Assembly (NCBI GenBank): GCA_948144175.1
Contig: CANXME010002066.1
Location: 372,001-436,000 of the forward strand
DNA: 64,000 nt
Direction: 5' to 3'
From: Closterium sp. NIES-65
Lineage: Eukaryota; Streptophyta; Zygnematophyceae; Desmidiales; Closteriaceae
Part shown: one piece after another, positions 1 to 46,408 of the stretch
Numbering within the stretch: position 1 is the stretch's first letter
Layout: each line of letters opens with the position of its first letter
The notes under the pieces: generated by a model
What the model was told of the DNA's origin: nothing
Databases searched by the model: none
Seen by the model: the letters and a program-made list of their open reading frames with translations, nothing else
Made by a program: the position numbers and the translations under genes

Positions 1-3000
1 TTGGGGGGGGGGGGGTATGTGAGTTATGGGAGAGGGGGAAAATACGTATGAGGGGGAGGGGACGCGAAGGGGAGAAACATGGCAATAGCAATAGCATGCG
101 AACAAAGAAAGGCCACTGAATATGGTTGTATTGACGGAAATAAATGCAACAGGTGATGAGGACGGCTGTGTTGGGGGTGGTAAGTGGTGGCTATACTCTG
201 AACTCAGCAGTGAAATCCCAGTCGAAGCGGATGGAGGAGAGCGGCTGCTGCAAGTGAGCAACGGTGTAGGCCAGGACCTCCCTCTGAGAGGGGGAGGGGA
301 GTGGTAGTAGCAGATAGGGGAAGGAGGGAGCAGATGAGGAAGGGAAAGATACCGGGCAAGGCACTGTCCGTGGGACAAAAAGCACAACAAAACCGCTGAA
401 CTTTTGGAACATGCCTGGTAGAACATGCCTGGTAGAACATGCCTGGTAGAACATGGAGTGCTGGAGAGCCTGTCCCTCCTGGTCCCTGGGCTGCATTGCC
501 AGCGCTGCCTGGTACTTGCGCATCTGTGGGCAGGGCATCACAGGTGTGCAGATGAGGGGTGGGCGGTCCTGATGAGGCTGGTGTGAAAGGAGACTATACA
601 GGGAACAGCATGGCGTGTAGCAGCTCACTAATGGACAGCACACAGCTTGGGGTGGGTGTGGGTGTGGGATGCTCACAGCTTCGGCGAGGTCCCCCAGGGC
701 ATGCAGGCTGCTGGCGTGGGCGTGCACAAGCTCCATGTCTCCTCCGTCCAGCTCCAACCCCTCCCTTGCATAGCGTATGGCGGCCCTGTGGGGTGGGAGC
801 GAGGGGAGAAGAAGAGAGGGAAAGTAGGGATGGAGTTCCATAGGTCATATTCATCCAGCCAACAAGAAAACACAAAGCTTCCCCAGAACAAAAGAAAACA
901 CCCTGACTGTGCAAGTGCGGGTAGCTCACCTGTAGTCACCCACGAATCGGCTGACAGACACAAGCTCCTGATAGGTCGCCACTGCCCTGTAAAGTACACG
1001 CAGAAATGCACGGGTGTGAGCACAGGGTGTGGTCAGTGGTATCATTTACGCGTGCCCCCAGAATGGGTACTAGCAAGGGAAAGGAAGGACGCGGGGACTG
1101 TAAGCAGTCACATCCACGGCACTCACTCACTTTCTGATCTGCAGCGCTCGCTGCAGCGCCTGTATGGCTTGATCCACCTCGCCCACCTCCTTGTGCGCGC
1201 GCCCCTTGGAATGCCACAGGTCCGCATCCTGGGGGTGGCGCCTCACTCCCTCTGCAAACACTGGCAACGACTCCCGCCACCTCCCACTGCCCCCTATGGC
1301 GAGGCCCTAGAGGAAATGGGATTATGGGAGTGAGGATCGTTAGAGAGAGGGGAGCAGAGGACAGTGTCACAATGGGGATGGATCGAAAGGGAGAAGAGGA
1401 GAGTGGAATTTGGGTGCTGGGAGAAACACCTAATGAACAGGTAATGCATGTTGGACATATGGTAGGAGGGAAGAAGCAATAAAAAATGCCCCCAAACCCA
1501 AAGGAATGAGGATTTAAAAGCGTCAACAGATCAGAAGAATGAGGAAGCATCGTGAGTGAGGAATAACATACAAGGCCTTTAAAGACGAAGGGAAGAGAGG
1601 GGTCGAGCTGAATGGCTTGCTGAAAGTCCTTCTCAGCTGCATAGTAGTACTTTAGGTTGAATGACAAGATGCCTGGCAGTGAGATAGAGAGGAGACAGGA
1701 GGGGTGGGATGAGCGGATGAGAAGGGAGAGCGAGTGTGTTGAAGGGAGAGCGAGTGTGTTGAAGGAAACGAGCGGAGACGGTTGCAGATGGAAGCACGTG
1801 GAAGTGACTTTTGAGTCGACTCAAAAGGCAGATGGACACATGATGGCGCGCCTCTATCAGCATTTGAGTCGACTCAAAAGGCAGATGTTCACATGATGGC
1901 GCGCCTCTATCAGCATTTGAGTCGACTCAAAAGGCAGATGGAAGCACGTGGAAGTGAGATGAGAACAACTAAGCCAGCAGTGCTGTGTCGTGTCTCGCAC
2001 CCACCACCAGCACTCACCTCGCCACCTGACAGCTTCGGCATTGGAGGGGTCCAGGTCAATGACTCGTGAGTAGTCCACTAAGGCCTTCACGACATGACAG
2101 TTGGTGTGGAATAAAACAGAGGGTAGAAGGGCGAGATGCAACGAGGGATGGCAGCAGCTGTGTCACTGCAGGATGCCTGCTGACAGCAAGGCCAATGGCC
2201 AAGAGTCGGGACAGAATCTGGTGTGATCAGGAGCACAATGGCAACATGCGTATTGGAACTATGGACCATGGCAGCATGTCTGTCATATGTACGAATGATG
2301 ATAGCAATCCACACGGCTGCACAATTGATCTAGTCTACCTGTGAACCTAATGACATCATGCAGTAAGTAAGAGGATGACAGCGTATCTTGTCCCATCTAC
2401 TCGATGAGACATCATGCATGTATGATGCCATTACCTAATGATGTGGTCCCCCCCCTACCCCTCGTCGCCACCATACATCATCACATGTACCTCAACATTC
2501 TTGTTCATCTTGAAATAAGTGCCTGCTCGAGCCATGAAGGCAGCAGTGCTTGTGGGGTTTGATGCCAGAGCCTGCCAGTGGAGCACAGCACACGAGTTGG
2601 AAGGGTTGATAAATCATGGGGCTATATCGAAATCACTTTTGAGGATTCTCAAAAGTGATTTCGATATAGCAAGAGTTGGAAGGGTTGATAAATCATGGGG
2701 CTGCTGATCACTCAATAAGTGGACAAGTGGAGATAAGAAGGAGGAAGTGGACGGAGCAGAAGACTCCTTACAGAGGACAGGTCAGCGAGGGCCTAGTCCA
2801 ACTGCCCCAGTGCACTGTGGCAGACTTTTGAGACGTCTCATAAGAAGGAAGGAAGTGGACGGAGTGCAATCCTTACAGAGGACAGGTCAGCAAGGGCCTT
2901 GTCGAACTGCCCCAGTGCACTGTGGCAGACTTTTGAGACGTCTCATAAGAAGGAAGGAAGTGGACGGAGTGCAATCCTTACAGAGGACAGGTCAGCGAGG

Positions 3001-6000
3001 GCCTTGTCCAACTGCCCCAGTGCACTGTGGCAGACTTTTGAGACGTCTCATAAGAAGGAAGGAAGTGGACGGAGTGCAATCCTTACAGAGGACAGGTCAG
3101 CAAGGGCCTTGTCGAACTGCCCCAGTGCACTGTGGCAGACTTTTGAGACGTCTCATAAGAAGGAAGGAAGTGGACGGAGTGCAATCCTTACAGAGGACAG
3201 GTCAGCGAGGGCCTTGTCCAACTGCCCCAGTGCACTGTGGCAGACTTTTGAGACGTCTCATAAGAAGGAAGGAAGTGGACGGAGTGCAATCCTTACAGAG
3301 GACAGGTCAGCGAGGGCCTTGTCGAACTGCCCCAGTGCACTGTGGCAGACTTTTGAGACGTCTCATAAGAAGGAAGGAAGTGGACGGAGTGCAATCCTTA
3401 CAGAGGACAGGTCAGCGAGGGCCTTGTCCAACTGCCCCAGTGCACTGTGGCAGACTTTTGAGACGTCTCATAAGAAGGAAGGAAGTGGACGGAGTGCAAT
3501 CCTTACAGAGGACAGGTCAGCGAGGGCCTAGTCCAACTGCCCCAGTGCACTGTGGCAGACTTTTGAGACGTCTCATAAGAAGGAAGGAAGTGGACGGAGT
3601 GCAATCCTTACAGAGGACAGGTCAGCAAGGGCCTTGTCGAACTGCCCCAGTGCACTGTGGCAGACTTTTGAGACGTCTCATAAGAAGGAAGGAAGTGGAC
3701 GGAGTGCAATCCTTACAGAGGACAGGTCAGCGAGGGCCTTGTCCAACTGCCCCAGTGCACTGTGGCAGACTTTTGAGACGTCTCATAAGAAGGAAGGAAG
3801 TGGACGGAGTGCAATCCTTACAGAGGACAGGTCAGCAAGGGCCTTGTCGAACTGCCCCAGTGCACTGTGGCAGACTTTTGAGACGTCTCATAAGAAGGAA
3901 GGAAGTGGACGGAGTGCAATCCTTACAGAGGACAGGTCAGCGAGGGCCTTGTCCAACTGCCCCAGTGCACTGTGGCAGACTTTTGAGACGTCTCATAAGA
4001 AGGAAGGAAGTGGACGGAGTGCAATCCTTACAGAGGACAGGTCAGCGAGGGCCTTGTCGAACTGCCCCAGTGCACTGTGGCAGACTTTTGAGACGTCTCA
4101 TAAGAAGGAAGGAAGTGGACGGAGTGCAATCCTTACAGAGGACAGGTCAGCGAGGGCCTTGTCCAACTGCCCCAGTGCACTGTGGCAGACTTTTGAGACG
4201 TCTCATAAGAAGGAAGGAAGTGGACGGAGTGCAATCCTTACAGAGGACAGGTCAGCGAGGGCCTTGTCCAACTGCCCCAGTGCACTGTGGCAGACTTTTG
4301 AGACGTCTCATAAGAAGGAAGGAAGTGGACGGAGTGCAATCCTTACAGAGGACAGGTCAGCGAGGGCCTTGTCCAACTGCCCCAGTGCACTGTGGCAGAC
4401 TTTTGAGACGTCTCATAAGAAGGAAGGAAGTGGACGGAGTGCAATCCTTACAGAGGACAGGTCAGCGAGGGCCTTGTCGAACTGCCCCAGTGCACTGTGG
4501 CAGACTTTTGAGACGTCTCATAAGAAGGAAGGAAGTGGACGGAGTGCAATCCTTACAGAGGACAGGTCAGCGAGGGCCTTGTCGAACTGCCCCAGTGCAC
4601 TGAGGCAGGAGCCTCGACCCACAAGCACTTGACCCTTGAGCGAGGGAGTCGACGCCAGCTGTCAGGCAATGATTGGGGGATCAACGGACAAACAGGCGGG
4701 AACGGTCCATACATGGAAGGCAAGGGCGGACATGTCACGTCACGTGTGAAGGGAGAACTGCAGTCTGATAAAGGAATGTGGGATGGAGGAAGATGGATGA
4801 ACTGCAGTGACTTAGAGTAGAATCTGCTATCCAGGAGACAAGAAAATGGTGACGGTTATTAGGCTGCGTCCCTGACTGACCTTGTTGTAGATGGCGATTG
4901 CCTCCGTGTATCGCCCTCGTGCCATCTGCATAGGACGGGAGCAGACAGCAGCAGATCGAGCGATGGAACAGGTACATTAGACTGAACAGTCAAGAGTTGA
5001 ATGTGCAGGAGAAACGGACGGCCTTTTTTATCCTGCCTGCTTTATAGTGAGATGCGTATGGACGAAGAGGGAACGGATTGATCTGACCAATTTGTCAGGG
5101 CGCTTCCAACCCATTGCTGGGCGATGACTGCTCGCACCCACCACCTCACCCACCACCTCACCCACCACCTCACCCACCACCTCACCCACCTCATCGTTCG
5201 CCTGCTGCAACATCTCAAGCTGCTTGCTTGTCGCCTGCGCTTCCTCCTCCCCCTTCTGCTTCTGCTTCTGCTTCCGTCCCGCTTCACCCTTGTTCACGTC
5301 TTCTGCACTCGCCCTTTTGATGCTTCCGCCAGGACTTCCCTTCTCATGCACCACTCTTTGCGCCCTCGTTCCCACATTAGCAGGACCATCGCCCAGCAGC
5401 AGCAAGCCACAGAGCTCAGTGCTCTCCAGCTGCCTCAGCCGCCCCACTGAGCTTTCTTCACACCGCAGACCCGATAACGCCTGCCTGTCACCTCCCTCTC
5501 TTCCTTCTCGGCCTGTCAAGACACTAGCAGGAGAGTCGGCGATACCCGAGACCGGTGGCTGCTGCAGGCGATACACCTTGGTTGCTGTGATGGGCAGGGC
5601 GGTGGAATGAATAACGGGAGAGGGATGGAGTCCTGAAGACTTGGTAGGGGGACTCTCAGCACATTGGCGCTTGGTAGGGGGACTCTCAGCACATTGGCGC
5701 TTGGTAGGGGGACTCTCAGCACATTGGCGCTTGGTAGGGGGACTCTCAGCACATTGGCGCTTGGTAGGGGGACTCTCAGCACATTGGCGCTTGGTAGGGG
5801 GACTCTCAGCACATTGGCGCTTGGTAGGGGGACTCTCAGCACATTGGCGCTTGGTAGGGGGACTCTCAGCACATTGGCGCTTGGTAGGGGGACTCTCAGC
5901 ACATTGGCGCTTGGTAGGGGGACTCTCAGCACATTGGCGCTTGGTAGGGGGACTCTCAGCACATTGGCGCCTGGTAGGGGGACTCTCAGCACATTGGCGC

Positions 6001-9019: not shown

Positions 9020-9091
9020 TGCTCGTCCAACACTGCTCGTCTCTCGTCTCCCCCAAACAACGACTACACAACTGTTTCCTTTATCTCCGCC

Positions 9092-14000: not shown

Positions 14001-14931
14001 GCTGAAAAGCATTGAAACCCTTGAGAGAGAGCTGCGGGGGAGGGACTCGGCAAGCCTTGCACTCAAGGCCTTTGCAGCAGCGCCTGAAGAGTGGAGGAAT
14101 CAGCTTGTCTCTGTCGTGCTTCCCAACGTGGGATTTGCGGAAGAGTTTGATGTGGGGAGAAGGGGTCCCCTCCAGCTCCGGAGGAAATTGCTGGCGGAAG
14201 GAGGTGTGACTCCACTGCGCGCGCTCAGAAGGTATTGGAAACATGGTGACAGCGGGGAAATTAGGCGGAAGAAGTGGGCGAGCCGTTGGGGTGGCAGCAT
14301 CGACTGGAAGCGGGCAGTGCAGATTCGGGAATCTCTGGTCACCCCGAGTCGTCCGAGGGACGTTCTGCTGCGCATACACTGCCTTAACTTACAAGTTGGG
14401 GAGAGGCTGGAGTTTCTCAGCAGCGAACCAGCCTGCCCGCACTGCAACGAGTTTGAAACTCTGGAACACTGTTTTTTGGCTTGCCCAAGAATTCAAGGGG
14501 TGGTGTCGGCGGTTAAAAAGGCTTTACGAGTGATCAACCCGTCCAGGAAAGGGGACTCGCTTGGTGATTGGCTGTTTGGGAAGGCGGGATCCCTGTCAGC
14601 CTTCCCGGAGGCATCATTGGTGGCGATCGCCCTTCATCAGCTGTGGGCGGAAAGGTGTGAAGGGGCATTCAGGGGCTGCAAGTTCCGCACGCGGAGAGTG
14701 CTGCGGAGGATTGAGTCAGCTTTCCGCATGCACGTGAATGTCTATCTGCGTGCCTCGGCGGTGAGGGTACAACGGCGGGGAAAGAGTCAGCATGCCAGGT
14801 GGCAAAAAATGACGGATCAAGAACGCAAACTTCTGGACCGTATCAGTGTGGTGGATGGCAAAGGCTGGAAATGGACCAACAGCTTCGCGGCAATATGGGG
14901 CAAACCACGCAGGCCCCGGATCCATGCTTGA
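11011..14931 (+). CDS. LINE ORF2: endonuclease, reverse transcriptase and zf-RVT
   Basis: 1,306 aa. An apurinic-type endonuclease occupies about residues 1-245, with GLNVNGL, GDLN, SRIDRAL and a final SDH. The reverse transcriptase runs about 430-780: YRPITLLN, FGFIPGRR, DFKKAFDSV, GVRQGCPLAP and the catalytic YADD. A zinc motif near residue 1145 (CPHCNEFETLEHCFLAC) is the zf-RVT domain common in plant L1 elements. No RNase H domain was recognised. It performs target-primed reverse transcription. No stop or shift interrupts it. Confidence 0.92.
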   Translation: MNTRNTLSFAGLNVNGLGDFTKRKRTTAWINSKKGADLMVLSDTRVATDNPYWTSLNLPSFLASSSVSRAGGVAVLSRRPDLSFHNPLAHPSGRLIKTEIHCANLRLTLIATYLPADKAEKRAFIRIVLGPIINLIQPNTHLLILGDLNTVENPLLDKTSGHGSTRENDFLYHHCNVFGVSDAFRALHPGEREFTFFSQAHQESSRIDRALVSQSLLPRLLKAEHVSPDEPVSDHGFVIRVFLKLKSRIQLGPGVWRLHPSLLGRPGAKKKIEEVERLVAQKGGSFASLISRLNSSLRSYAKEESKRVRATISHLTRAVAVLRQESMRNPKDQRLRELLRKREQQLKEYFACRRDRMHTMAGVEMALSGEVPSPHLSARIKTRKTRTQIAEVAIPGGMVSEPKRILEAASEYFRSLFGEDKRTAFTDWSPAAGRKLWFSDAESLQEEWTEEEIKQALREMANNKTPGKDGLPKEVFEMHWETLGKHVMGLVRDFTTTSSLPTSVKDAVTILLHKKGAKEQLENYRPITLLNISYKLLARVLASRIKRVLHKVISPEQFGFIPGRRISDAVGLVADVIDAAKNGNEDWYLLLVDFKKAFDSVSREFIFEVMEKMGFPVRFIGWVKGLHTNTRTNLLINGWLGEAVEVVSGVRQGCPLAPYLFLCAVEPLAQKVIKRKIGISLASCVGHKLGYIDYADDTTLLLQGKQHISRAEEVLEEFKSISGLETNKGKSVMLPLGANLGKKAWRADGFRWAGAEEAERLLGVWVTPNGSCQPTWDKALQKIAGKMSLWQPQYLPIKARTAVMDGYILPIAWSQAQVYPPPAQTWGVITKMTHNFMSANKVTSEKCFRLWSKELLFTPVLEGGVGAKNPETMLTCLTARRIGTILTETNQLKRELMRQAADLPRGLETFMAHEKLLKTWEGKSQRWKLACANFMRSPLATTTEARETTELLLERITFNRHILLKGTTPLGGQLAAKRLLGVRLGDLITRDAEGRGTLKSIETLERELRGRDSASLALKAFAAAPEEWRNQLVSVVLPNVGFAEEFDVGRRGPLQLRRKLLAEGGVTPLRALRRYWKHGDSGEIRRKKWASRWGGSIDWKRAVQIRESLVTPSRPRDVLLRIHCLNLQVGERLEFLSSEPACPHCNEFETLEHCFLACPRIQGVVSAVKKALRVINPSRKGDSLGDWLFGKAGSLSAFPEASLVAIALHQLWAERCEGAFRGCKFRTRRVLRRIESAFRMHVNVYLRASAVRVQRRGKSQHARWQKMTDQERKLLDRISVVDGKGWKWTNSFAAIWGKPRRPRIHA

Positions 14932-15559: not shown

Positions 15560-17871
15560 TCATTTTTCATGCATCACATCGTAACTCAATGCCGCAATCA
15601 CATGGTGCGTGGTGGGCAAGGCACCCTCGATAGGGGCTAGATCCCAGGGTGAGCTTTTAGTAGAGACGAAGAGCCATGGGGCAAAAGAGGCATTGAAGTC
15701 TTCAAAGCGAGACACAAGTAAAGCCTCCCAGTCAACCTGAATGGTAGAGGTATGAATGAAACAAATACTCAGTGATTGATCGTGCCAGGGAAAAGGCTCT
15801 ATGAAAACCTCGAGAGACAAGAGTGTGCTCTTCCTGTCATTGTATTTTTAACTGAACCGCTGGGACGCTATCTGATGTGTCTTGCTGTTGAGTAAAAGTA
15901 ATCTCTTGCTGACAACGGCGTGATCATGTGTCAAGTCAACGCACGTGGCAGAAAAAGAAAAGAATGTTCCAGCCTCAAAGGGCAACCATGCCTCCAATAG
16001 TACGGCTCAGCCTACCTGCACCCCATCGGGGATGAGCGCAGTGGTCTGCATGTCAGCAGCCATGGTGAGGCCGAGGATGGAGACCACCCCCACCATGGCA
16101 GAGCCACGAGTCAACGGCATGAGCTGGAACCTGTGCGGTTCAGAGAGGGGGGTGTTGATGGGTGGAGGATACACAAGAATAGCGAGAGGCGTGTCAGCAG
16201 TCATGGAGAGGCCGAGGATGGAGACCACCCCCACCATGGCGGACCCGCGCGTCAACGGCATGAGCTGGAACCTGTTGTGTAGTTAAGGCGGAGAGGGAGA
16301 GGAATAAAGTGGGTTGAAATTTTAGTCGACTCAAATCACCACAAGCCCCACCATGGCGGACCCGCGAGTCAACGGCATCAGCTGGAACCTGTTGTGTAGC
16401 CAAGGGGGAGAGGGAAATGAGTGAGGGTCACGCAGGCATGATGTGTGAAAGGAGTTTCAGATCTAAAACAGGAGTGAGTCTGCGCTGTGTGTATCACTGT
16501 GCAAGGCAGCAACATGCGTGAACCCTCCCACAAGCACGCAGAGTACCCCATGCATTAGCAGCCAGGCACAGCGTGTGTACCCCACTGGCCACGCACGCAC
16601 AGCACAGCACAGCACAGCACAGCACAGCACAGCACAGCACAGCACAGCACAGCACAGCACAGCACAGCACAGCACAGCACAGCACAGCACAGCACAGCAC
16701 AGCACAGCATAGCACAGCACAGCAGAGCACAGCACAGCACAGCACAGCACAGCACAGCACAGCACAGCACAGCACAGCACAGCACAGCACAGCACAGCAC
16801 AGCACAGCATAGCACAGCACAGCACAGCACAGCACAGCACAGCACAGCACAGCACAGCATAGCACAGCACAGCACAGCACAGCATAGCACAGCACAGCAG
16901 AGCACAGCACAGCACAGCATAGCACAGCACATCACAGCACAGCACAGCCTGCCCCAGAAGTGCCCCAGCCACGAGCATGGAGAACACCCCATGGCAGTGT
17001 GCCGTACACAGCGCCTGGTGGGAGGGAGGATGGGGGAGGATGCATACCAGAAGTACCCCAGGCGGAGGATGGCGTCTTGAATCGTCTGGCGGTAGCGATG
17101 CGGGTCAGCCACCTCTGTGTGTGCGTCCAGCACTGCCGCACACAGCGCCTGGTGTGAGGGGGGAGGGGGAAGCAGGAATGGATGGGACAGAGATCAGACG
17201 CGTATCCGCTTGTTCAGAACTGAAGTGCAGCAGTCGCGTCAAAGTGAAATGGCAGGCGGAGCAAGGTAGGTGTGCCCGGGATTCAAGAGAGGAGGGATTG
17301 GTGTGCATGGCAAGGGGGGTTGGACCACACAGGAGAGAAGGACTGACATGACAGGTATAGGAGACGCAGATGCGTATGAGTCATGCACGCCTGACCTGCC
17401 ATGAGTCATGCACGCCTGACCTGCCATGCAGCAGTGAGCTCGTGGTCGAAGCCGTGCCACCGATGAGCGCTGATTGGCGTGTGCGTGTAGAAGTTGAACG
17501 CGTGGGTGCTGGTATGGTACAGGCAGACAAACAGGAGCGCGTGAATGTGGTGGGTGGGTGGCTCAATGCGTGCATGCAGAAAAAGGGAGGGAGGATAGGT
17601 GAGTGAAAGACAGATGGAGCTCCAGAGGCGGAGGAGAGAAGGGAGGGGTTGGAATCGATAGGGAAATATGGTGGAGAGGGAAAAGAGAGCATGTGAGGGG
17701 GAACATGTTGGGAGAGATTCACATGCTCTCGCATGGTAAACTGCGGGAACTGGGTGATTGATAAACAGTGTGCTCTGCCTGATGCGTGGGGAAGTGGCAA
17801 ATTAGAAAAAGCACGAGGCAATGGCTTACGTCTTGAGGATTTCAAACATTGATCCGGTCAGGTCCTTCCTG

Positions 17872-17930
<59 letters not shown>

Positions 17931-20900
17931 ATGCGATGGGAGGATGTGAGGAGGTTACAGAGACGAGGAGGTGGAAATAGAGAGACAAGAGGTGGAAATA
18001 CAGAGTGATACGCGTGATGTGTGCTCTGAAAGCTCATGGCTGGAGCAAGGCTTTTGAGGCCATCATCCTCGCATCATCTGAAGAGGTGGAAATAAAGAGA
18101 CAAGAGGTGGAAATACAGAGTGATACGTGTGACGTGTACTCTGACTGCTCATGGCTGGAGCAAGGAATAGCAGATACAACGCTTCGCAAATGCTCAGCTG
18201 TAGCAGGGAAGGATACCCTGGGGATGACTGTTTCAGGAAAGGCGTTTGCTGGGAAGACATGGCTGTAGCAGGGAAGGCGCACCCTGGAGCGGCATGGCTG
18301 TAGCAGGGTGCTTGGACAAGAAATTCCTTTCCCACAGCTTGGTGAAGCGCCTGCAGGTCAGCCGCCCTGGTGATCTACGGATGGGGAACAGGGGGCGAGG
18401 GGAAGAAAAGAAGAGGGGATGGGAGAAGGGAGGAAGGTGACGAGTTTGAGGGGAGACTGGGATGCTTAAAGATTCGTGGAGGGAGGAGTTGGTTAATGCT
18501 GAGACGAAGAGGCAAGTTGATATGTGACGTGCATGGGGACAGAAACGGAGTCAGGGCGGTGCATGTCTCTGCTCTGCTGTCGCTGCCATGGCCGATGCAG
18601 TCCACTCACCCCATGTGGCCATATGTGTTGCAAGGAACAGGCACAGCTCACTCACCATGTGGCGTGTGTTGCGCGGCACAGCGAAGGGCTGGTCGTTTGA
18701 AAAGGCCCGCTCTGACTCCAGCAGAGCTTCACTCATGGCCTCAAACGACCTGCCACGCATTCAACAGAAATTGGCTTCAGACGACAAAACAACACTGCCG
18801 CAGAGAAGCGGAGTCAGTGCAAGAGAGGTGTGTGTGCTAGTTTTGAGGCGCCTCAAATGTGTGCTAGGAGGTATGAGTGGTGGGGGGAGTGTGTGGGTTT
18901 GGCAGGCTGAAAGGGCGAGAAAGAAGGTGAGTGGATAGTGAGGGACCCACTTGTTGAAGACGGGGTAGTACTTGACGGTCTGCAGATCCCACACCTTGAT
19001 GGGCGTGGACGACCGAACGCCCCGCGCAAAGCTTTTTCTGCAGAGGAAAGCAGACGGAGCACCCTTTCCCCCCCATGAGACATGATCGCATGCCATCAGG
19101 AAACCATTGAGAATCAAATCATTAAGAACGGGAAGAGCCATCCCAGTGGCACGTACTTCAGTTGGTCGTTCCAGAGAATAGCAGCCGTTGGATCGGCGAT
19201 CTGTCTCCATCTGGTGATCATCTCGTAAACATCCCTCCAGCCTTTGAGCACCCCACCGCCTGACACCTTGCTTCTGCTGCGGCTCTTCCCACTGCCCTTG
19301 CCTGAGTTTTCACTTGCCTTCTGCCTCTGCTTCGCCGTGCTCTCTACCCTTCCGCCTCCTCCTGCTAGTGCATCTTTTTCCTTGGTTGTTGTCGTGTCTG
19401 TAACCGTGTTACCAGCTGCTGACTCCCTCCCCTGCAGCTCCTGTGCCATAGCATCCCAACTTGCCCTTGCCTGTGCCACGGCACATGCACACATGGAGCA
19501 ATTGAAAGAGCATGAAAGATCTCCACACTTGCAACACTGTCTTTAGTGACAAGCATTTGCAAAAGCAGCATTGAATAACCAGCTGCATCTCGTCAAGAGC
19601 TGCCAGCCCTGGGGATTTACGAGTGGCCTGAACACCATCAAAGTGAATGGGGGCAGATGAGAGAAGGACGTGGGTGGAAAGGAAGCGGAAGAGTCTCACC
19701 TGCTGCATCACGTCAAGAGCTGCCAGCCCTGCCATGCGCAGCTGAGGGGTGGAGGGAGGGCGAGGGGAATGGAGTGAGCACAGGAACAAAGTTCATGCAG
19801 GCAGTATTAGGGAAGTGAGGATATGAGGGGTGAAGACAGAAAACAACAAACAAAGCATGCTGGCATGTCTCTGCTGTTACCTGCTGCCTGTTTGCCATGA
19901 AGGCATCACAGTGGTAGTGGGCACGCTGGCCGATCCTGTCCGCTGCTTCTATCAGATCCAACCCTCCTCGTGACAGCTTGGGCAGGGATAGTAGTTTGGC
20001 GCGCTGTAACTGGCGTGAACTGACCGAGAGCGGCTGGTATCCTGGCAGTGTTGCTATAGGGTCACTATTGGTCCATGCCTCCTGTGCCACGGTGGGGGAG
20101 GGGGATATGAGTCGGGAATGTAGCAAGGGGGGACTGAAGGGGAGTAGCAAGGTTGGGATGTGATAAAAAGGTATTGTGATGGGATGTGGTGGTGATGCCT
20201 CTTGGTTGAGCAATGTGAGATGATTCTACGTCTGAGCAAAGGGCAATGAGAATAGGCGTGCCAATGGGAAACAGACGCCACAGCACGGGTGATGAAGATG
20301 GCTGTGTTCAGAGCGATGAAGGGTTGAGGGCAATAAAGGGTTGAGGGCGATAAAGGGTTGAGGGCGATGAAGGGTTGAGGGCGATAAAGGGTTGAGGGCG
20401 ATAAAGGGTTGAGGGCGATAAAGGGTTGAGGGATGTAGTAAGGCGTGGCCGTACTCTGAACTCAGAAGTGAAGTCCCAGTCGAATTGGATAGAGGAGAGC
20501 GGCTGCTGCAAGCGAGCAACGGTGTAGGACAGTACCTCCCTCTGGGAGGGGGAGGGCAGTTGGAATGGCAGTCATGGGAGGCAGGGAGCATATGAGGAAG
20601 GGAGATGAGTGGGAGTGGCGAGGGGCTGGTCGGGGAGCAAAAAACACAAAAAAAGCACTGAAACGTTTAACATGCCTGGTAGAGCATGCCTGGTAGAACA
20701 TGCCTGGTAGAACATGGAGTGTTGCAGAACCTGTCCGTCCTGATCCCTGGGTTGCAGTGCCAACGCTGCCTGGTACTTGCGCATCTGTGGGCAGGGCAGC
20801 ACAGGGGTATCCAGATGAGGGTGGTGGGTCGTCGTGATGCAAGTGTGTGTGTGTGTGTGGTGCGTGCGAGATCGTGATTTAAAAAAGGCACTATGCAAGC

Positions 20901-26740: not shown

Positions 26741-29700
26741 ATGGCGCAGGAGGTGGTCGAGGCTTGCGCTCAGCAGCAGTGGTCGCGCGCCGTTAAGCTG
26801 CTGACTGCGCAAATAACGGAGGCGGAAGAGGCCAGCAGGAGTCCAGCCGAAGTCGCGATGTTCCTCTGGTGCGTTTCAAACCTCTATTCATCTCAATTAC
26901 CATCAATTTGGTTCTGTTTAGCGAGAATGTGGTTGAATTACAGTCTGTCAGAGATTTCTGCATTTTCAAGGGGTTATCTCAAATTACCACTTCACTCCAA
27001 CGATCATGAACGAATCTTTTCATATGACCCACCCCCCCTACGTTTTCAATCTGATTTGTGCAGCAATCGCGCGTGGTGCTATCTGCACTTGGATCTCAAC
27101 AAGCACGCGCTCAAGGACGCTATGAGGGCCACGCAGCTCGCTCCAAACCAGCCTCTCGCCTTCATGCGCCAAGGTGACCCGCACTTCCACCCCGCTCGCC
27201 GCTCCTCTGTTTCGAGGTCCCCTGTTCCCTGCCTTTCCGAGAAAAATGGCCGGCGTGCTGCCCCGTGACTGTCGCCTGCCTCATTGATCACTCATTGAAC
27301 GCTGTTGTGAAAACGGATCGTGTGTACTCGCTGAATTGACCGAGTCTCTCTTTGTTTTGACTGGCATATCTTATTCTTTCCTCGTTTCTCCCGTGTTGGC
27401 GATGCAGGTGCGGCGTGGCTGGCGTTGGGCAAGAACGACGAAGCCAAGGCCGCCTTCACCCAAGGCTACCAAGCCGCAACCACCACCGGCAGTAGCGCTG
27501 CCGCCACCACTCCCCTCCCCGCGTCCTCCTGCGTTGACCTTGAGTTCGCGCTGCGCCTGCACACGCTCTCCCTCGACCCCTCCTCCCCGCTATCCCCAAC
27601 GCCCAAGCTCGCTTCTCCCTCTCAGCAGACTCCCTCTGCAAACGCGTCTCCTGCGTCTCCTTCCTCTGCGTATCCCCCTCGCACACCGTCTCCCTCGTCC
27701 TCACATCGCGCTCCTGCTGCCACTTCTGCTGCCCAGAATGGGTGTGTGATTGTAGAGACGGGCTCTGGGGATGCATCATCACGTAGTGCAAAAGAGAAGG
27801 GGGCCAATGGGGAGGTTGCAACTGTGGAGGCGCGGGGAGATGCTTCACCTAAGGAGCAGAAGAAAGAGGGGAAGAAGAAGGGGGGTCGAGAAGGAGAGAG
27901 AAGGGAAGGGAGTGGCGGAGGCGAGGACAGAGGGAAAGGGAGCAGTGGCGGAGGGAAGGGGTTGGGAGGAGCACGCGGCAGCCTGGCATTGGATTTGTTG
28001 ATTTCCCTTGGGATCAACCAAGTAAGAAAAAAAGAAATTACATTGCGTTTTTTCGTTGACCTTTCCACATCCAGCCTCTTCTAAGCTGAACGCAGGAGCG
28101 CTGCATAGTAGAGCATATTGTGTGCGTTGTAAGTGCCTCGTCATTATCAGTTCACCTTACAGGTCGTTCCTGTTTCCCTTGGCAGGTCAATTCAGGCAAG
28201 CTTGACGATGCTGTCAAGACCTTCAATCAGGTACATCGCTATCAGCCTATCACAACACAACCAACCACGTTCCTTTGTCTGTCTCTTATTGGTTCGATCA
28301 ATGTTTCCTCTGGACAGTGGCTGCTGCTTCTCCTGAACTGAACCCACCTTCCTTCTGTATTGCGTGCAGGTTCTGGAGACAGACGGACGGGCGCTGGGTG
28401 CGCTGGTGGGGCGGGGCACAGCACGGGCTCTGCAGCGCAAGCTCAAAGAGGCCGTGGCTGATTTCACTGCTGTAAGTTTTACATGCTTGCTGTATAATTC
28501 GTCAGAAAACAGTGCGTTTGCATTCATTCCTCCAGCTAATGCATGTCTTTGCTGTCCTCTTGTTTTATCTCAGGCGATTGAGATTGAGCCGCGGGCAGCA
28601 GAGGCGTGGAAGCGGCGAGCGCAGGCGAGGGCTGCTCTGGGGCAGATGGACGAGGTGAGAAGTGAATAGGGCAGTTGAACTGAGTGATTTATAACGAGCT
28701 AATGCCCCTCTTTGTTCGCCTACTCCCTCCCCGCTTCCCCCTCGCCGTTCTCTGTGTGACGTACTGATATATGTGTGTGCTTCTTGCTAGGTGACTTTTG
28801 AGTCGACTCAAAAGTCAACTTGATATATGTATGTGGTCCTTGCTGCACGTTCAGGTGATTGAGGATTTCACTCGAGCGTTCACCATCGACCCCTCGTCCA
28901 CGGATGTGCTAGCTGAGAGGGGTGAGTGTCTTGCTGTGCTCTTGCTGTGCGGAAAGGATGGGGTGGTCCTTGGTGTGTGAATGAGATGAGGCTCTTTCAG
29001 GTGCAGCTTGCCTCCATTGCACGTGGAGCTGCCTTGAGTCCTGGCTGCTTGCCTCTTGGCAATTTTCATTTTTGTATGAGAGCATGTTATCGTCTCAAGT
29101 GTATTGAGGAGGTACACTGAAGCACTGAAAGTGCACCTTTTCAATGCCCACACTGCTGTGTTGCTGCTGTGGTATCTGTGTGTGCTGCTGCAATGTCTGC
29201 GTGCTGCTGTGCTGTCTGTGTGTGTGCGTGCAGGAGTGGTGTATGTGAAGCAGCGCAACTACCGTGCAGCCATTTCGGATCTAAAGACCTCTCTGGATTC
29301 CAATCCGAAAGATGCCAACGCGTATAACTTCCTGGTACTGCGTCTCTTCTCCCAGTAACCACCACTGACTGGTTGTACGGCCACCATGGCTGCCACGCGC
29401 TGACGACGCCCTGTGATGGGATCGGAGGGCTGTTAATCTCATCATGGCAGGCTGCATATCATCCGAGCTGCTTTCCTCCCACATTCTTCTTCGCCCTCCA
29501 CTTCGACGCTGAATGTCCGTCAGTCCTGCTTTCCCACCTCGGTTACCCGCTTGTGTAACGCGTTCCACCTCCTCATTCCTCTCCTATTCCTCGCGTGCCT
29601 CCATGCCACCCCTCCCCTTCTTTGTCATCTCTCCTGCAGGGCTTGGCGCTGACGGGCACAGGGGCGTGCATGGAGGGCGTTGCGGCGTACAAGAAGGCTG

Positions 29701-32700
29701 TGGCCCTGCGCGCAGATTTCAAGGATGCGTGGGTTAACATGGGGCAGGCTTATAAGGAGTACGGCGATGCAGAAAACGCAGCCAAGTGCTACCAGAAGGC
29801 ATTGGACGCGGACTCAAGGTGAGTGTTTTGCTTTCCAAGCGAAGGGATCGTGCAAATGTGGATATTGCCAGTATCTGCCCCCGCCTCTCCATTACCCCGC
29901 CTTGGTTATATCCCACGTGCTCCCCTCGTCTTACAGCGTCTCCTGTCCAACCCCCCCTCCATTCTTCCCCTCGCCCCTCGCGGCACTGCAGCTTTGCCAC
30001 GGTGTACCGCTACTGGGCGCTGCTCAAGCACGGCGTGGGCGACCACAGGTGAGCGCCACACATATTGCTGTGACTTACAAGAATTTTCAAAGGTCACGTT
30101 GCCCCTCTCGGCACTGCAGCTTTGCGACGGTGTACCGCTACTGGGCGCTGCTCAAGCATGGCGTGGGCGACCACAGGTGAGTCAGCAACCACATGCCTTC
30201 GCATCCCCTTTCCCCGCTTCCCTCCCCTCGTTTTCCCACTTCCCCACCTTCCCCCCTTTCCCTCCCTCCCCCCTTTCCCCTCCGCGCCCCCCTTCCCCCC
30301 ACCCCTATGCATGTATGAATAAGTGCTACAGTTATGCAGAGCAACAAATCTTACCCACCTCTTCCTTCGCTCACTCTCTCGCCACTCACTTCTCGCATCC
30401 CACCTCTTCACCCTACCTGACACATACATCCACCTCCCTTTCGTGCGTCTTGTGCTACTGCTTCCCCAACCCCTTCCCTCCCCCCACTGCTGCACCCCCT
30501 CCCCTCCATCCGTGGCACCAGGGGCGCGTCACAGATGGCGCATAAAGGGCTGAGGCTGGAGAGGAGCAACATCGAGCTTTGAGGCGCCTAAAAAATCATC
30601 CATTTCCCTTCCGTGCGTCTCGTGCTGCTGTTTCCCCGCGCCCCCCCCCGCGCTCTGTGGCACCACACCAGAGGCGCGTCCCAGATGGCGCAAAAGGGGC
30701 TGAGGTTGGAGAGGAGCAACATCGAGCTCATGTACTCGTATGCCTCCTCCGAGCATGCCGTGGGGGAATACGCCACTGCCGTGAGTGGGTCACTCGTGAG
30801 GGGAATGAGTTGGCCACTGCCGTGAGTGTGTCGTGTGGGGGGAGATACAAAGGGTGGTGATCGTGTCATGTGGTGTGGGGGAACACTCAAAGTGACGAGG
30901 AAATGCATCGCATGCTGGAGCATACATACGCCTTGTCTTGTGATACGGGCTTGCTGCCGCACGATGGCTTTTGAGACGACTCACGAGTCACCTTCCCCCT
31001 GCCCCTGTCCCTTTCCCCTTCCCTGATCCCCTCCCCCACCAGGTGCGCACGTATGATGAGATGCTGGGCGTGGAGACAGACTCGGAGTCGAAGCTGCTGC
31101 AGTTCCTCGGCTTCTACCAGCGCGAGATTGCTCTCTACACTCTCTCCAAGCACTCCCACCCGCTCGCCCACTTCAGCCTTGACAGAGACCTCGACCCCTT
31201 CTTCAAGGTCAGAGCACACTCACCCATAGGACTCCTTTGTATATGTGTTATGAGAGTTGGCATTGCACTTTACACGCTCTCCAAGCTCTTTCAGCCGCTC
31301 TCCCACTTCAGCCTCGACAGGGACCTTGAACCCTTCTTCAAGGTGAGAGCACAACCACCTATTGTACTCCTCCCTATCTGTGTTTTGGGACTTGGCAAAG
31401 ATTGCCCTTTACACGCTCTCCAAGCACTCGCAGCCGCTCGCCCACTTCAGCCTCGACAGGGACCTTGACCCCTTCTTCAAGGTCAGGCCACGCTTGCTCA
31501 TTGCGTGTCCATCTGTGCTGCAATCTTATTCTACATACCAGTTTTTGTGTTTTGCATCTGTTGCACAATATATGGACGAACATGGTCTGTGTTATCCTGT
31601 CCGTACAACCCTCCCTTCAACTGCCTCTTCTAATCCACAGGAAGCGTGGTGCAAGAAGCTTCCCCCCACGCTGCTCTTCCCAGGCTACACCACCCAGCCA
31701 GTCCCACCCTCCATCGCCGTGCGTCTGGGCAAGAAAGCCTCCTCTGCTGCAGGGGGCAGCAGCAGCGGCGGTGGCAGCAGCGGCAGTGGCGGCGGTGGTG
31801 GCGGTGGGGGCGGCAAGAGCGGTGGGAATCCCGAGGTGCAGAGGCTGCTGGAACTAGCTGATCGGATAGGCCGGCTCACGCAGTACTCGTGCCCTGGCTT
31901 CCATGCCAACGTCCGCCAGGTGAGACTCTAGTGCATGTACCTGTGACTCTCACACAGTGGGAATCCCGAGGTGCATAGGCTGCTGGAGTTGATCGGAGAG
32001 GCCGGCTCACGCAGTACTCATGCCCTGGCTTCCACGCCAACGTCCGCCGGGTGGGATTTAGAAGTGCCTCTTGAACTATTCGGTGAAATAAATCTGCCTC
32101 CACACAAAGATATCACACAGTGTTATCCTGTATATCCTGCGATGCCTGTCTGTTGGAAAAACCTTTACATAGACACGCACATCTGCTCCCCGCCATCCCG
32201 CCCACTCTCCTCTCCTCCCGTTCCTTTATGCCTGCCTCTTGGACCTTTGCGATGCCCCGTCCACCCTTGATGCATGTTGTTTCCTGCCAGCATCGCATGG
32301 CGGGCCTTGCTGCCATAGAAATCGCCCAGGCTGTAGCAGCCGCTTGGGAACAGCGCGAGGAGGAGGCTGCTGCTGCTACAGCTGCTGCCGCTGCTGCTAC
32401 AGCTGCTGGTAGCGCATCTCCTGCTTCCGCTGCAGCAGCAGCCGTTCTTGCTGAGCTGGAGGATGGAGGCACTGACATGTCGTCCTTCTCCAAGTCATCA
32501 TCTGCTGACGTGTCATTGTCTCCTGTGCCTTCCTCTGATGACGTGTCATCACTTCATTTGGACGATTCTCTGATGGATGATGGGGGTAGCAGCAGTGGAA
32601 GCGAGGCAGTGGCAAGCGGAAGCAGAAGTCAGGAGGAGAGGAGGAAGGGAGGGAAAAGTGGTGGGGGAAAAGGAGGGAAGAGCAAGGGCGGAAAGGGAGG

Positions 32701-35700
32701 AGGGCGGGGGAAAGGAGGAGGTGGAAGCGGAGGGAAAGGTGTCTCTGCAAGCGCAGCAGGGGTTGGGGCAGGCTCAGGCGCAGGGCAAGGGAAGGGGGGT
32801 GTGACAACAGAGGGAGTGCAGATAAAGGGGTGGAGGGATGCATACTCCATTGCTGTGCGGTGGAGGCAGCTGTCAGAGCCGTGTGACCCGGCTGTATGGG
32901 TGGACATGCTCACGTGAGTAGTGTGATGATGTGAGGCATGCTGCATGCATGGTTTTTTGGTCGACTCAGAAAGCAGTGTCAGAGCTGTGTGAGTGACCGG
33001 GCTGTATGGGTGGACATGCTCACGTGATTAGTTAGTGCATGCAAGACATGTCGCATGGATGATGCCTCGTTTGCTGGAGTTAAGGACAAGTCCAGGCCGT
33101 GAGTTTCTCAAGGACATTGCGGCAGTACCATATCATGGTCGTGTGTGCTGGGTGTGACTCTATGGGATGCGTAGCAGAGTGTGTTGTGATTGTATCAGTG
33201 ACCTCTCCCGTCACATACAACCTCCCGTCGCTACCCTTGTGTCGCAGGGAGAAAGAGTTTCGAGCGGGCTTTGGGTCTCACACACCCATACTTATCGGGC
33301 AGACTAAGGTGGTGCGCTACCATGCTAACTTCGACAGGTGTGCTCCCTCTCAACTCATACCCTCCTTGCTACCCTACCGTCCCCCACCTCACCTCTCAGT
33401 GCTGTTATTTGTGTGTGCATCCCCCCTGCCATTCGTGTCTACATCATTTGGTCTCTCGACTCCTCCTTCATTTTCTGCCTTCGTCTCCTCTGCGCGCATG
33501 GCAATGCCATAGTGAAGTAGTTTTGGAGGCGCCTAAGGACTGTGTGCCTGCCTGTGTGTGCCTGTGTGCGGGGTGCTCGCAGGGCGTTTGCAATAATGAA
33601 GGAGGAGATGCTGCGGTCGGGTGCGGTGCACAACGCTGCTAACAACCGAGTGGCCGTTGATGCACCCGCCCAGAAAGCAGCTGTCAGTTCACCCACTCTC
33701 TTAGCCCCTCTGCGCTCAAATTATACTCCTCCACTCCAAACCCATTCTTTCCATGCCGCCCCGTCTGAATCCGTTCTTATCCATTGGCTCTCTCACCCAC
33801 CCATGCTAATCCTTGTTGTAGCCTCAGGATAAACCTTTCCTTTCTCCCTCTCGTCACTCTCCTATCCCAGTTCCCCACTCACCCACCCTCTCTCCGAACC
33901 TCTCTCCGGCACCCGCCCCTTGGCTCACAGGTGGCCTCGGCCAAGGCGTGTGAGGATCTGTATCGGGTGGTGGGGGAGGATTTCTGGATCGTCACGCCCT
34001 GCTACAGCATGGTGGACCCGGGGTGAGTGGCTGAGCATGGATGAGCTTGAGTTACTGCTTTTGAGTGGTTGTAGTGAGTCTGTCTCGCCTTACTGAGAAC
34101 CCACTGTTTTCTCAATCCACTTCCTGCTTCCACTGCTCTGACCACCTTTGTCCGTTCCTCTTTCTGCCTGCATGTGTCACTTGTGTCATTTTCCACCCTT
34201 CCAGGAAGGTTCTCGAGGGCACACGACTCACCCTTGTGAAGACGTAAGCAGCCCAGCCGATTGCTCTCTGTCCTCATTCTCCTCTCAGTCCACTTTGCTC
34301 TCGCCCTTAGCTCTTTCAACCCCCTTAGCTCTTTCAACCCCCTTAGCTCTCTCAACCCCCTTAGCTCTCTCAACCCCCTTAGCTCTCTCAACCCCCTTAG
34401 CTCTCTCAACCCCCTTAGCTCTCTCAACCCCCTTAGCTCTCTCAACCCCCTTAGCTCTCTCAACCCCCTTAGCTCTTTCAACCCCCTTAGCTCTCTCAAC
34501 CCCCTTAGCTCTCTCATCCCCCTTAGCTCTCTCAACCCCCTTAGCTCTCTCAACCCCCTTAGCTCTTTCAACCCCCTTAGCTCTCTCAACCCCCTTAGCT
34601 CTCTCAACCCCCTTAGCTCTCTCAACCCCCTTAGCTCTCTCAACCCCCTTAGCTCTCTCAACCCCCTTAGCTCTCTCAACCCCCTTAGCTCTTTCAACCC
34701 CCTTAGCTCTCTCAACCCCCTTAGCTCTCTCAACCCCCTTAGCTCTCTCAGTCCCTTCTGCTATCTCGGTTCCATTGTCCTCTTCTCGTTTCCCATTCAT
34801 CACCCTAGCATACTCACACTGTCCTCCTCAACCTGCTTTCCTTTCATGTCCTTCCTTAATAACTCTGCCTTCCGTTTTTCCCCTCACGCACCTCCCCGTT
34901 CCCGTGCTGTTTCTCTCACGCGCCCTCTCTCTGCATGCGCCCGCAGCCCCACGGGGTTTGACTTTGCCATCCGCACGCCCGGCACGCCCTCACGCTGGGC
35001 GGACTACGACGCAGAGATGGCAGCTGCATGGGAGGTGCGTGGGGTAGAATGGGGTTGGGTGGGGTGGGGTGGGATGGGGTGGGATGGGGTGGAGTGGGGT
35101 GGGGTGGGGTGGGATGGGGTGGGATGGGGTAGAGTGGGGTGGGGTGGGGTGGGGTGGGTTGTTGGTGAGGGAGGGCCAATGGTGTGAATGCTGCGGACGT
35201 GGCAGGAAGTGTGCTTCTGACAGCTAGCAGCGTGACGCACGGATGCATGTGCCAGTGTGCGGCCTCTGTGATTCCCCTCCTGATCGTACCCCGCTGAAGG
35301 TATTGTCACACTCTGCAGTTGTTTCATGTCAGAGTCATGCTGGCAGCACGGCTGCTGAAAGGGGAGCAGTGAGAAGAAAGCTTCTCCAGTTCTAGCCCTG
35401 CCCTCCTCCCTCCTGTGCTCTCTCTGTCCTCTCCTCCCCCTTTCCCACCCTGGCCAACCCAGGACTTGTGCGCAGTGGTGGGGGAGAAGATGCAGGGGGG
35501 GGCATGGAGGCCGCCTCTTGGTCCTTCTATGGCACGATTCCAGCGAGCCGTGCTGCGCCTCGCCTACTACTGGTAACCACGCATCCTAAACTCCATACCT
35601 TACCATGAAATCCTGAACTCCAAGCACCCCTTCAACGCTTTGCTTGTCTTGATGCCGTTGTCTCGTCATTATAGGCCGCATATATTTACACCATCTATCA

Positions 35701-45300: not shown

Positions 45301-46280
45301 CACAAGGTCAATGCACAACGCCATTCTTAATAACACCTTCCCCAGGTATGCCTCCCTCCCTTTCTCCCTTCATGTGCCTCCCTCCCTTCATTTGCCTCCC
45401 TTCCTTCCTCGCCATTTACATCCCTCTTAATCCCACATAATCCCTCGTAACCCCTCATATCTCTCTCTCATAATCTAAGAATCACATTGCATCCTTGTGT
45501 GTCCAATACTCATGCACTTGCCTCCTCCCTGCTCCCCTCCTCCCTGCTCTCCTCCTCCCTGCTTCCCTCCTCCCTGTTCCTCTGCTCCTCCTCTCCCCTG
45601 CTCCCTGCTCCCTGCAGCTTTGTGGTTGATTTTCTCCAAAAACAGGTGTGCCCTTTCGCGCTTTCTCCCCGTCCCTTTTCCATCTTCCCACCCTCCGCTT
45701 TTTCAGCTTCCCCCCACAGATCCATACTCCACACACACACACACACACGCACATACATCCCCAACCCCAACCCCCAACCCCAACATCCCCCAATCCCCAA
45801 CCCCAATCCTCCCATCCCCCAATCCCCACATCCCCCAATCCCCACATCCCCCAATCCCCACATCCCCCAGTCCGCACATCCCCCAATCCCCACATCCCCC
45901 AATCCCCACATCCCCCAATCCCCACATCCCCCAATCCGCTCATCCCCAATCCCCCCATTCCCCATCCCAGATTCCAAATCCCAGATTCCAAATCCCAGAT
46001 TCCAAATCCCAGATTCCAAATCCCAGATTCCAAATCCCAGATTCCAAATCCCAGATTCCAAATCCCAGATTCCAAATCCCAGATTCCAAATCCCAGATTC
46101 CAAATCCCAGATTCCAAATCCCAATTCCAAATCCAACCATCCCCATCTCTCCATCCTCGTCTCCTCATGTGCTTGGTCCAACAGTTCCCGCGGGGCGACG
46201 TGCCGCAGTGGGTGCAGGCGGCCATGCAGGCTGCTGCCATTGACATTTCCCCAGCTCTGCACCCGGCCCGCGTGTTGTGA
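39385..46280 (+). CDS. QTRT1: Queuine tRNA-ribosyltransferase catalytic subunit
   Basis: Replaces guanine 34 with queuine in GUN-anticodon tRNAs. 13 exons in phase: 39385 (or 39670)-39687, 39935-40028, 40723-40901, 41488-41595, 42247-42367, 43021-43087, 43437-43478, 43730-43835, 44090-44272, 44686-44787, 45299-45345, 45618-45645, 46185-46280. From Met at 39670 the protein is 396 aa, the size of human QTRT1 (403). Key motifs: [56 protein letters not shown] with catalytic Asp in [15 protein letters not shown], and the zinc ligands CSCLAC...H split across exons 9 and 10. An in-frame upstream Met at 39385 adds 95 Arg/Ser-rich residues resembling an organelle presequence; either start is possible. 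The enzyme's usual partner is QTRT2, not seen here. Confidence 0.93.
40136..40177 (+). pseudogene. Echo of QTRT1 exon 2 end with donor
   Basis: Repeats the last about 40 bp of exon 2 (tgcctcacgcccatgttcat...) followed by GTGGGT, about 150 bp downstream. Confidence 0.85.
40407..40660 (+). pseudogene. Two echoes of QTRT1 exon 3, 5' part, upstream of the true exon
   Basis: Copies at about 40408-40495 and 40566-40655 each begin after an AG and encode [15 protein letters not shown], then run out. Only the third copy (40723-40901) continues to a complete exon. Confidence 0.85.
40965..41187 (+). pseudogene. Two echoes of QTRT1 exon 3, 3' part, downstream of the true exon
   Basis: Segments at about 40974-41041 and 41117-41186 repeat the end of exon 3 (tggactggcc...gactcgggggggtt) with donor, separated by 20-30 bp repeats of ggctttaagatggtg. 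Confidence 0.85.
41708..41969 (+). pseudogene. Echoes of QTRT1 exon 4
   Basis: 41708-41807 repeats most of exon 4 with an internal insertion that breaks the frame and ends in a donor; 41944-41969 repeats just the last about 26 bp and donor. Confidence 0.82.
41979..42066. repeat. 13-bp minisatellite (gtgggagggaact), about 7 units
   Basis: Starts directly after the donor of the small exon 4 echo at 41944-41969. Confidence 0.9.
42368..42700. repeat. 16-bp minisatellite starting at the QTRT1 exon 5 donor
   Basis: Unit gtgcaggcaggggtgg, about 17 copies. The unit echoes the exon end itself (ATGCAGG|GTGAGG), so every unit carries a CAGG-GTGG donor-like site. Confidence 0.93.
43934..44012 (+). pseudogene. 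Echo of QTRT1 exon 9, 5' part
   Basis: Begins after an AG and encodes [20 protein letters not shown], then diverges; the true exon (44090-44272) follows. It includes a copy of the catalytic Asp codon. Confidence 0.85.
44369..44400 (+). pseudogene. Echo of QTRT1 exon 9 end
   Basis: Repeats the exon end encoding IDxSCSCL, followed by GTGAGT. Confidence 0.75.
44514..44590 (+). pseudogene. Echo of QTRT1 exon 10, 5' part
   Basis: Acceptor plus [20 protein letters not shown], then diverges; true exon at 44686-44787. A further 3' echo ([12 protein letters not shown] with donor) lies at 44843-44877. Confidence 0.85.
45730..46130. repeat. Compound microsatellite/minisatellite tract in QTRT1 intron 12
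   Basis: (ca)n at about 45730-45750, a 16-bp C-rich unit (ccccacatcccccaat) at about 45785-45950, and a 14-bp unit (agattccaaatccc), about 12 copies, at 45966-46125. Frames through it are artefacts. Confidence 0.95.
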
Positions 46281-46408
46281 CGCGCCTCAAACGTCCTTCC
46301 CAGGCGCCTGCCTGATCCGTTTCCCTAGGGAAACGTGCTGCAGTGGGTGCAGTCAGCCTTGCAGACTGCTGCCATCAACATTTCCCTAGCTCTGCACCCG
46401 GCTCGCGC
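46273..46408. repeat. Half-eroded P palindrome and copy of the last QTRT1 exon
   Basis: The stop codon region is followed by gcgcctcaaa (about 46282-46291), a right-half P, and then by a copy (46328-46408) of the last about 80 bp of the terminal exon. Confidence 0.7.

Follow-up and report, generated by a model that had tools for sequence, protein, structure and literature searches.

Tens of thousands of copies of one ultrashort palindrome are scattered through the genome of the charophyte green alga Closterium sp. NIES-65, where nearly all the intact isolated copies sampled lie between direct duplications of host sequence. We describe this system from a 64,000-nucleotide (nt) stretch (contig CANXME010002066.1, positions 372,001 to 436,000, forward strand; hereafter the window) and from the assembly that contains it (874,075,685 bases, 874 Mb, in 2,400 contigs). 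P denotes the self-complementary word, which has an 18-base-pair (bp) core and reaches about 52 bp with full arms, and X denotes the duplicated flank. Our preferred reading, to which we assign a probability of roughly 0.55, is that P is a very short mobile palindrome that becomes joined into breaks with staggered ends; once filled in, the tails of such a break give X-P-X and, later, minisatellites. The Ty3-type, Copia-type and LINE genes present in the window point to nuclear DNA.

P is far more abundant than chance allows. The core TTTTGAGNNNNCTCAAAA has 30,327 exact copies in the assembly, array copies included, against 4 for the reversed control. A window scan allowing up to three mismatches returned 39 core matches; with array copies masked, 4, 6, 9 and 13 matches remained at up to 0, 1, 2 and 3 mismatches, whereas 50 dinucleotide shuffles of the window averaged 0, 0, 0.12 and 2.2. 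A preliminary description had listed palindromes across the window, staking its case on a genome-wide scan and on the motif being commoner than in shuffled sequence, and both counts agree with it. The scan recovered every listed palindrome except those at 33521, where one arm has an additional base, and 30076, which carries five mismatches; one additional weak match, at 9793, resembles chance. Outside the alga, the core had no match in viral contigs and one in genome contigs (Microbulbifer), which we take as chance.

P sits at the junction of a local direct duplication. We examined a 258-kilobase (kb) sample composed of the window and 20 stretches (L001-L020) of contigs C6, C9, C10 and C1768, a small set mostly chosen by matches, as 18 of the 20 stretches were picked for matches listed in the first search. 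Simple flank scoring gave high scores at random positions too in this duplication-rich genome, and was replaced by a rule that the duplicate must start and end within 20 bp of the core, at a score of 20. By this rule 54 of 72 clusters of cores with up to two mismatches were flanked by duplications, compared with 63 of 300 random positions, itself a notable rate that reflects the wealth of local duplications, and none of 72 mispaired flanks. Among isolated exact cores, 24 of 25 lie directly between direct copies of local X; X was also found beside 5 of 10 isolated cores with one mismatch and 11 of 20 with two. Over 40 sites, X ranges from 16 to 198 bp, with a median of 65.5. Target duplications made by cut-and-paste transposases have a fixed length, so a variable X speaks against a single transposase of fixed geometry. 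No target consensus at the X borders was clear by eye at 32 sites, array borders included.

Individual window loci show the same anatomy. We judge that 11 of 14 distinct loci, with array and cluster copies merged, have an adjoining duplication. The duplication at 18841 is only 10 bp, just under the score threshold of the sample test, and the flanking similarity at 33521 is weak (23/30, in low-complexity DNA); no flanking duplication was found at 22469 or 30968. The preliminary description was thus right that the flanks are direct duplications of host DNA, present at most copies and variable in length. Its exact pairs hold to the base (24/24 at 1784/1934, 30 at 2594/2673, 10/10 at 18831/18858), while the others exist in less perfect form: the 24-bp pair at 28765/28821 is not exact, and the pairs given as about 88 bp (16227/16341, here 16224/16338, and 32866/32973) and about 150 bp (30427/30597) match with the substitutions and gaps given below. 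The window features are as follows.

1784..1807: X1, 24 bp, identical to 1934-1957
1808..1827: P, 20 bp, centre TCGA; with further cores at 1862 and 1915 forms a nested X-P-Y-P-Y-P-X
1934..1957: X2; a single X-like copy lies in the paralogous stretch within 22496-22575
2594..2623: X1, 30 bp, exact copy at 2673
2621..2670: P, centre GATT, 23-nt arms, overlapping the end of X1 by 3 bases
2673..2702: X2; a single X without P stands in the paralog at 23424-23727
2733..4608: (X-P)n minisatellite, period 105, 17.8 copies, centre ACGT; a single X without P stands in the paralog at 23638-23850
16224..16298: X1, itself related to 16048-16134; 70/75 with 3 gap positions to 16338-16415; only one copy is present in a diverged paralog in L051
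16319..16336: eroded P, centre TCGA, 3 mismatches
16338..16415: X2, pairing with 16224..16298
18831..18867: X (10 bp), P at 18841-18857 with centre GCGC, X (10 bp)
22252..23850: segment paralogous to 1531-4722, each of the two supplying natural empty sites for the other
22460..22495: P, centre AATT, imperfect arms of about 18 nt, no flanking duplication
22898..23369: (X-P)n minisatellite, period 49, 9.6 copies, centre GCGC; a single X without P stands in the paralog at 2210-2375
28765..28844: X (24 bp), P at 28789-28820, X; 21/24; also in the 99.5% identical C1750 copy
29973..30181: X of 81 bp, 47-bp insert with eroded P at 30070-30097, X; 78/81 (29973/30101)
30427..30728: X, P core at 30577-30594 with centre GCGC, X; 112/132 with 20 gap positions
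30969..30986: eroded P, centre ACGA, duplication not found
32866..33061: X, P core at 32954-32971 with centre TCGA, X; 73/84 with 7 gap positions
33521..33539: eroded P with an extra base, weak flank similarity
46198..46407: X of 75 bp, 60-bp insert with eroded P at 46275-46292, X; 66/75 (46198/46333)

The window provides an internal control in the form of empty sites. Segment 1531-4722 is paralogous to 22252-23850, and each half carries insertions that the other lacks. At the P of 2637, the left part aligns with 23424-23608 and the right part with 23575-23727, so that the paralog has a single X, of which 34 bp are shared, and lacks P. The 105-bp array corresponds to a single unit in 23638-23850 and, reciprocally, the 49-bp array to a single unit in 2210-2375. 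The nested cluster at 1809 matches one X-like stretch in 22496-22575, with the joined flanks scoring 50.5 against a maximum of 35.4 in 200 shuffles. The region around 16319 has three exon-like copies in the window and one in the diverged paralog. No palindrome remnant or footprint was seen in the empty paralogs. An ultrashort palindromic insert is therefore present at some homologous sites and absent at others, and X, single in the empty site, is doubled where P is present, giving a direct duplication of variable length at one locus.

P and X also age together. Core mismatches increase as X identity declines (rho -0.42, p 0.007, 40 isolated sites), with median X identities of 0.938, 0.856 and 0.839 for cores with 0, 1 and 2 mismatches (n 24, 5 and 11). 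Because core damage rises with X divergence, palindrome and second X look like arrivals of one event. The suggestion of a minimal mobile palindrome with long staggered cuts, one of three raised by the preliminary description, fares well as a description, in keeping with copy number, subfamilies, empty sites and joint arrival.

We propose a break-repair route to this structure. Two nicks on opposite strands, about 10-200 bp apart, would open a host site; once the single-stranded tails were filled in, the segment bounded by the nicks would be present twice, as two X. A duplex of P made from a P already in the genome, its outer arms trimmed and its core intact, would be end-joined between the X copies to give X-P-X, and a protein may hold or protect the core. 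Slippage or unequal exchange between X copies would then produce (X-P)n arrays, and point mutation would erode P and X together. Small tandem duplications are described as arising at staggered breaks by fill-in and end-joining in other organisms (PMC8355091). X-P minisatellites are expected if X copies recombine unequally, and they occur with periods of 105 and 49 in the window and spacings of 37, 42 and 53 in L006, L017 and L008.

The inserts are trimmed from the outside and their cores are largely spared. At 32 sites with borders defined by X, inserts run from the bare 18-bp core upwards; at 23 single-core sites they span 19-49 bp (median 27), and 72 of the 80 positions outside the core but within the insert are paired. 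The arm sequence AGGTGAC accounts for 90 of the 105 outer bases inserted in the TCGA class and ends after 0-7 nt. Left and right arm lengths are unequal at 13 of the 15 sites where both are at most 7, and correlate weakly (rho 0.29, p 0.30 at these 15 sites; rho 0.40, p 0.06 at all 23), so trimming looks largely independent on the two sides. The outer arms are thus trimmed, usually to unequal lengths, and the 18-bp core is rarely cut. A partner arm with up to three changes accompanies 127 of 149 CTTTTGAG words in the sample, and an intact arm with a listed centre is followed by the whole partner arm in 118 of 176 cases (both strands, array copies counted). Most of the partnerless remainder among the matches listed are array copies or differ by a single change, while only a handful appear truncated (L013:9052, L020:2617, L001:7171, L010:2553 and L008:9484). 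That the core is so seldom cut suggests that a protein is bound to it or that both half-sites are required.

A number of observations weigh against this reading. The empty sites come from 75-85% paralogs rather than from alleles, and at a single locus P could also be lost by exact recombination between the X copies, which would regenerate an empty site. No polymorphic P was seen: the sole near-identical copy region (G000 C1750:405632-414360), which matches window positions 26.8-35.4 kb with 99.5% identity across 8,577 aligned bases, has the same six P sites and no empty site. X was lacking at a score of 20 from 15 of 55 single-core P sites (1 of 25 exact, 5 of 10 with one mismatch, 9 of 20 with two). 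Independent trimming of the two sides is no more than plausible from the arm lengths. Junction microhomology speaks for the reading: in the TCGA class, 15 of 30 genomic ends match the arm for one or more bases beyond the insert, against an expected 7.5 (1 in 4), although the count includes one site adjoining another P (L012:9334). Trimmed ends and this modest microhomology excess favour the second suggestion of the preliminary description, that fold-back DNA was captured in break repair, which is compatible with the data and forms part of our preferred reading. Random trimming would cut the core more often than seen, however, so the capture of loose DNA does not by itself suffice as an explanation, and the rarely cut core speaks for something more specific.

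Local tandem duplication also proceeds without P. The sample contains 151 local tandem-duplication junctions with spacers of 0-90 bp, a very dense population of which most lack P. A core with up to two mismatches lies at 29 of the 151, and one with up to five at 48, where about 11 are expected; from 19 of the 31 youngest junctions (at least 95% identity) even a P-like core with up to five mismatches is absent. Duplication therefore does not need P, and, against a strictly P-driven process, either the repair route also runs without P or other inserts exist. Other palindromes showed no clear excess in P-free duplication spacers (5 of 109 at score 6; 2.6 expected). Junction spacers are unexplained even where the copies are 95-100% identical.

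The centre of P bears on whether it arrived through RNA. Window centres are mostly self-complementary, with exceptions at 2637 (GATT) and 30969 (ACGA), as are 29 of 34 exact-core sites in the sample, where chance would give 1 in 16. The five others are TTGA, TCAA, ACAT, AATC and GATT, and CpG decay, acting on TCGA or ACGT, would produce the first three. Genome-wide, the centre is NCGN in 24,964 of 30,327 exact cores, and asymmetric W/S-class centres number 840 (402+438) of these 24,964, a count outside which AA, TT, GG and CC combinations fall; about half would be expected with independent outer bases. The pattern TTTTGAG-RATT-CTCAAAA has 2,631 forward and 2,626 reverse matches, and those listed comprise about 49 AATT and 3 GATT sites. 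It had been claimed that the centre stays self-complementary in nearly all copies and that both arms change together. The first part stands for most sites; the second is true of subfamilies, partly reflects a few founder types (TCGA, GCGC, ACGT, AATT), and fails for the GATT form, which has perfect arms yet a non-self-complementary centre.

Target-primed reverse transcription, in which LINE machinery would copy a short hairpin RNA into nicked DNA, is the rival that survives best, and we consider it unlikely. Variable target duplications like X are normal for this route, the GATT form reads as a hairpin with perfect arms and a 4-nt loop, and LINE proteins are numerous in Closterium (821 matches). 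Runs of 9-13 A residues are joined to the core at two of the 72 sites, both outside the 32 bounded inserts (L002:4001 and L009:4167). RNA loops need no self-complementarity, yet W/S-asymmetric centres are scarce where half would be expected. The window LINE, moreover, has a poly(A) tail and a 16-bp duplication, whereas no 3' tail, whether poly-A or repeat, was clear by eye in the 32 bounded inserts, and X extends to about 200 bp.

Template switching is somewhat less probable again. A broken 3' end would copy a distant P via microhomology and rejoin its own locus behind its start, so that X is copied twice around P. The junction microhomology, X lengths of tens to hundreds of bp, and concatenated half-P sequences at L013:9018 and L010:2545 agree with such a course. 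Yet it predicts donor flanks beyond the arms, where most positions beyond the core are paired instead, and frequent stops inside the core, where few cores look partial.

P also occurs with long arms. The full 32-bp TCGA form has 321 genome copies, array copies included. For the GATT form, a 19-nt stretch of the arm was found at 60 genome places, both arms being complete at 3 loci. The ACGT-form arm GAAAGAAGGAGTGTTTTGAG was found at 748 places, of which the first 100 listed include 7 complete pairs; array copies are included in both of these counts. Because long arms recur genome-wide, they belong to inherited subfamilies and were not copied from each target. If half-P adaptors were added to both broken ends and joined via the self-complementary centre, the complete, self-complementary centre and the unequal arm lengths would be accounted for. 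We regard this as improbable, as the same variable arm stands on both sides of P, both in a perfect palindrome with 26-nt GAAAGAAGGAGTGTTTTGAG arms at L018:4603 and in the 23-nt arms at window 2637, and a GATT centre cannot self-anneal fully.

The third suggestion of the preliminary description, that P is the footprint or fused ends of an excised inverted-repeat transposon, is disfavoured and slightly more improbable still. Inverted arms around a short variable centre do resemble two abutted terminal repeats. X, however, lacks the fixed length of cut-and-paste duplications, and the empty sites carry no footprint. Lone arms are also few: a scan of about 353 kb gave 23 matches, 18 of them from one 33-bp array in three loci, and no long element with these ends was seen among them, distant arms not being paired systematically. 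That array, in L046, L048 and L049, contains AGGTGACTTTTGAG without a partner arm and perhaps grew from a damaged P. Least probable of all is that P represents selected protein-binding sites or replication signals that were duplicated later because palindromes are fragile DNA: arrays do expand and some P lack X, yet later duplication should copy P as X-P-X-P, where nearly all isolated exact sites have one P at the X-X junction, and the empty paralogs lack both P and the second X.

We found no described family that fits a break-repair tandem duplication with one recurring palindromic insert. A literature search returned no description of this palindrome system, and the core sequences were not found in the texts searched. 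MITEs and other inverted-repeat DNA transposons share inverted arms, high copy number and target duplication, but P has no interior, its duplication length is not fixed, and no partner transposon was seen among the lone arms. SINE and LINE retroposons make target duplications of variable length; the P insert differs in being fully palindromic, trimmed on both sides and without a clear tail. Bacterial REP palindromes are likewise short and dispersed and are associated with RAYT transposases, and we know of no X-P-X duplication for them.

Break repair supplies a closer parallel to X than to P. Patch-mediated repair of staggered breaks in rice reportedly yields small tandem duplications. Duplications attributed to CST-Pol alpha-primase fill-in resemble ours in being direct, tens of bp long, and derived from two offset nicks by end-joining (PMC8355091). 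Unlike these, in Closterium one specific palindrome recurs tens of thousands of times, falls into subfamilies and has a core that is rarely cut; an incidental insert, as expected of break repair, disagrees with such a recurring family and with its presence at 29 of 151 junctions. The nearest ultrashort palindromic elements we found are both organellar. Yeast mitochondrial GC clusters (GC42) are described as ultrashort palindromic mobile DNA of 42 nt with constrained pairing and an unsettled amplification mechanism, flanked by AG or ACT repeats (PMC4478555), whereas P is nuclear with direct repeats of 10-200 bp. Palindromic A/T repeats of Fusarium mitochondria are putatively mobile and have a 2-4-nt spacer, but their arms are mononucleotide and copies number 14 and 16; the words duplicat- and target site are absent from the main text of that paper (PMC7218506). 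Closterium strains are reported to vary widely in genome size and gene copy number, with long-read assemblies of six published, and the main text of that report does not contain the word palindrome (PMC10407611).

If the mobile-palindrome reading is true, nuclear mobile DNA can be barely longer than a protein-binding site, with each insertion doubling 10-200 bp of its target. It would link mobile elements, break-repair tandem duplications and minisatellite birth, which are usually treated apart. A bolder version is tentative and in our view somewhat doubtful: the 18-bp palindrome would be a self-propagating nuclear element, among the smallest mobile DNAs. A host protein, either dedicated to this role or co-opted, would bind it as a dimer, shield the core and deliver it to staggered breaks, and many of the tandem duplications, exon-edge duplications and minisatellites of Closterium would be its work.

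Other features of these regions deserve mention. X at 29973-30181, 30427-30728, 32866-33061 and 16224-16415 resembles exon edges with splice sites, read from unannotated sequence, and the X-P-X process may create partial exon copies. A second perfect palindrome, CGTTTCCCTAGGGAAACG, lies at 46318-46335 within the duplication spacer that also contains the eroded P at 46275, and a perfect 20-bp palindrome unrelated to P, TCGATCCTACGTAGGATCGA, at 25942-25961. The C1750 copy carries an 82-bp tandem-copy insertion and a 50-base C-run, and a 3-kb stretch further along C1750 matches the window only in short pieces. Long P-free minisatellites occupy 6777-8091 (13 bp x 101), 5640-6424 (30 bp x 26) and 34304-34750 (18 bp x 25). 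A search with the array-encoded open reading frame (ORF) gave 44 candidates, none with E <= 1.

The window also carries conventional retroelements. A LINE at 9020-15056 has two ORFs (9092-11014 and 11011-14931), a poly(A) tail and a 16-bp target duplication (9004/15057). The 120 listed of the 821 protein matches to its reverse transcriptase (11011-14931) are all labelled Closterium, and none of these 120 contains P-encoded peptides. A Ty3-type retrotransposon at 57226-61892 encodes gag and a long pol ORF including a chromodomain, and a Copia-type reverse transcriptase fragment lies at 50223-51500.

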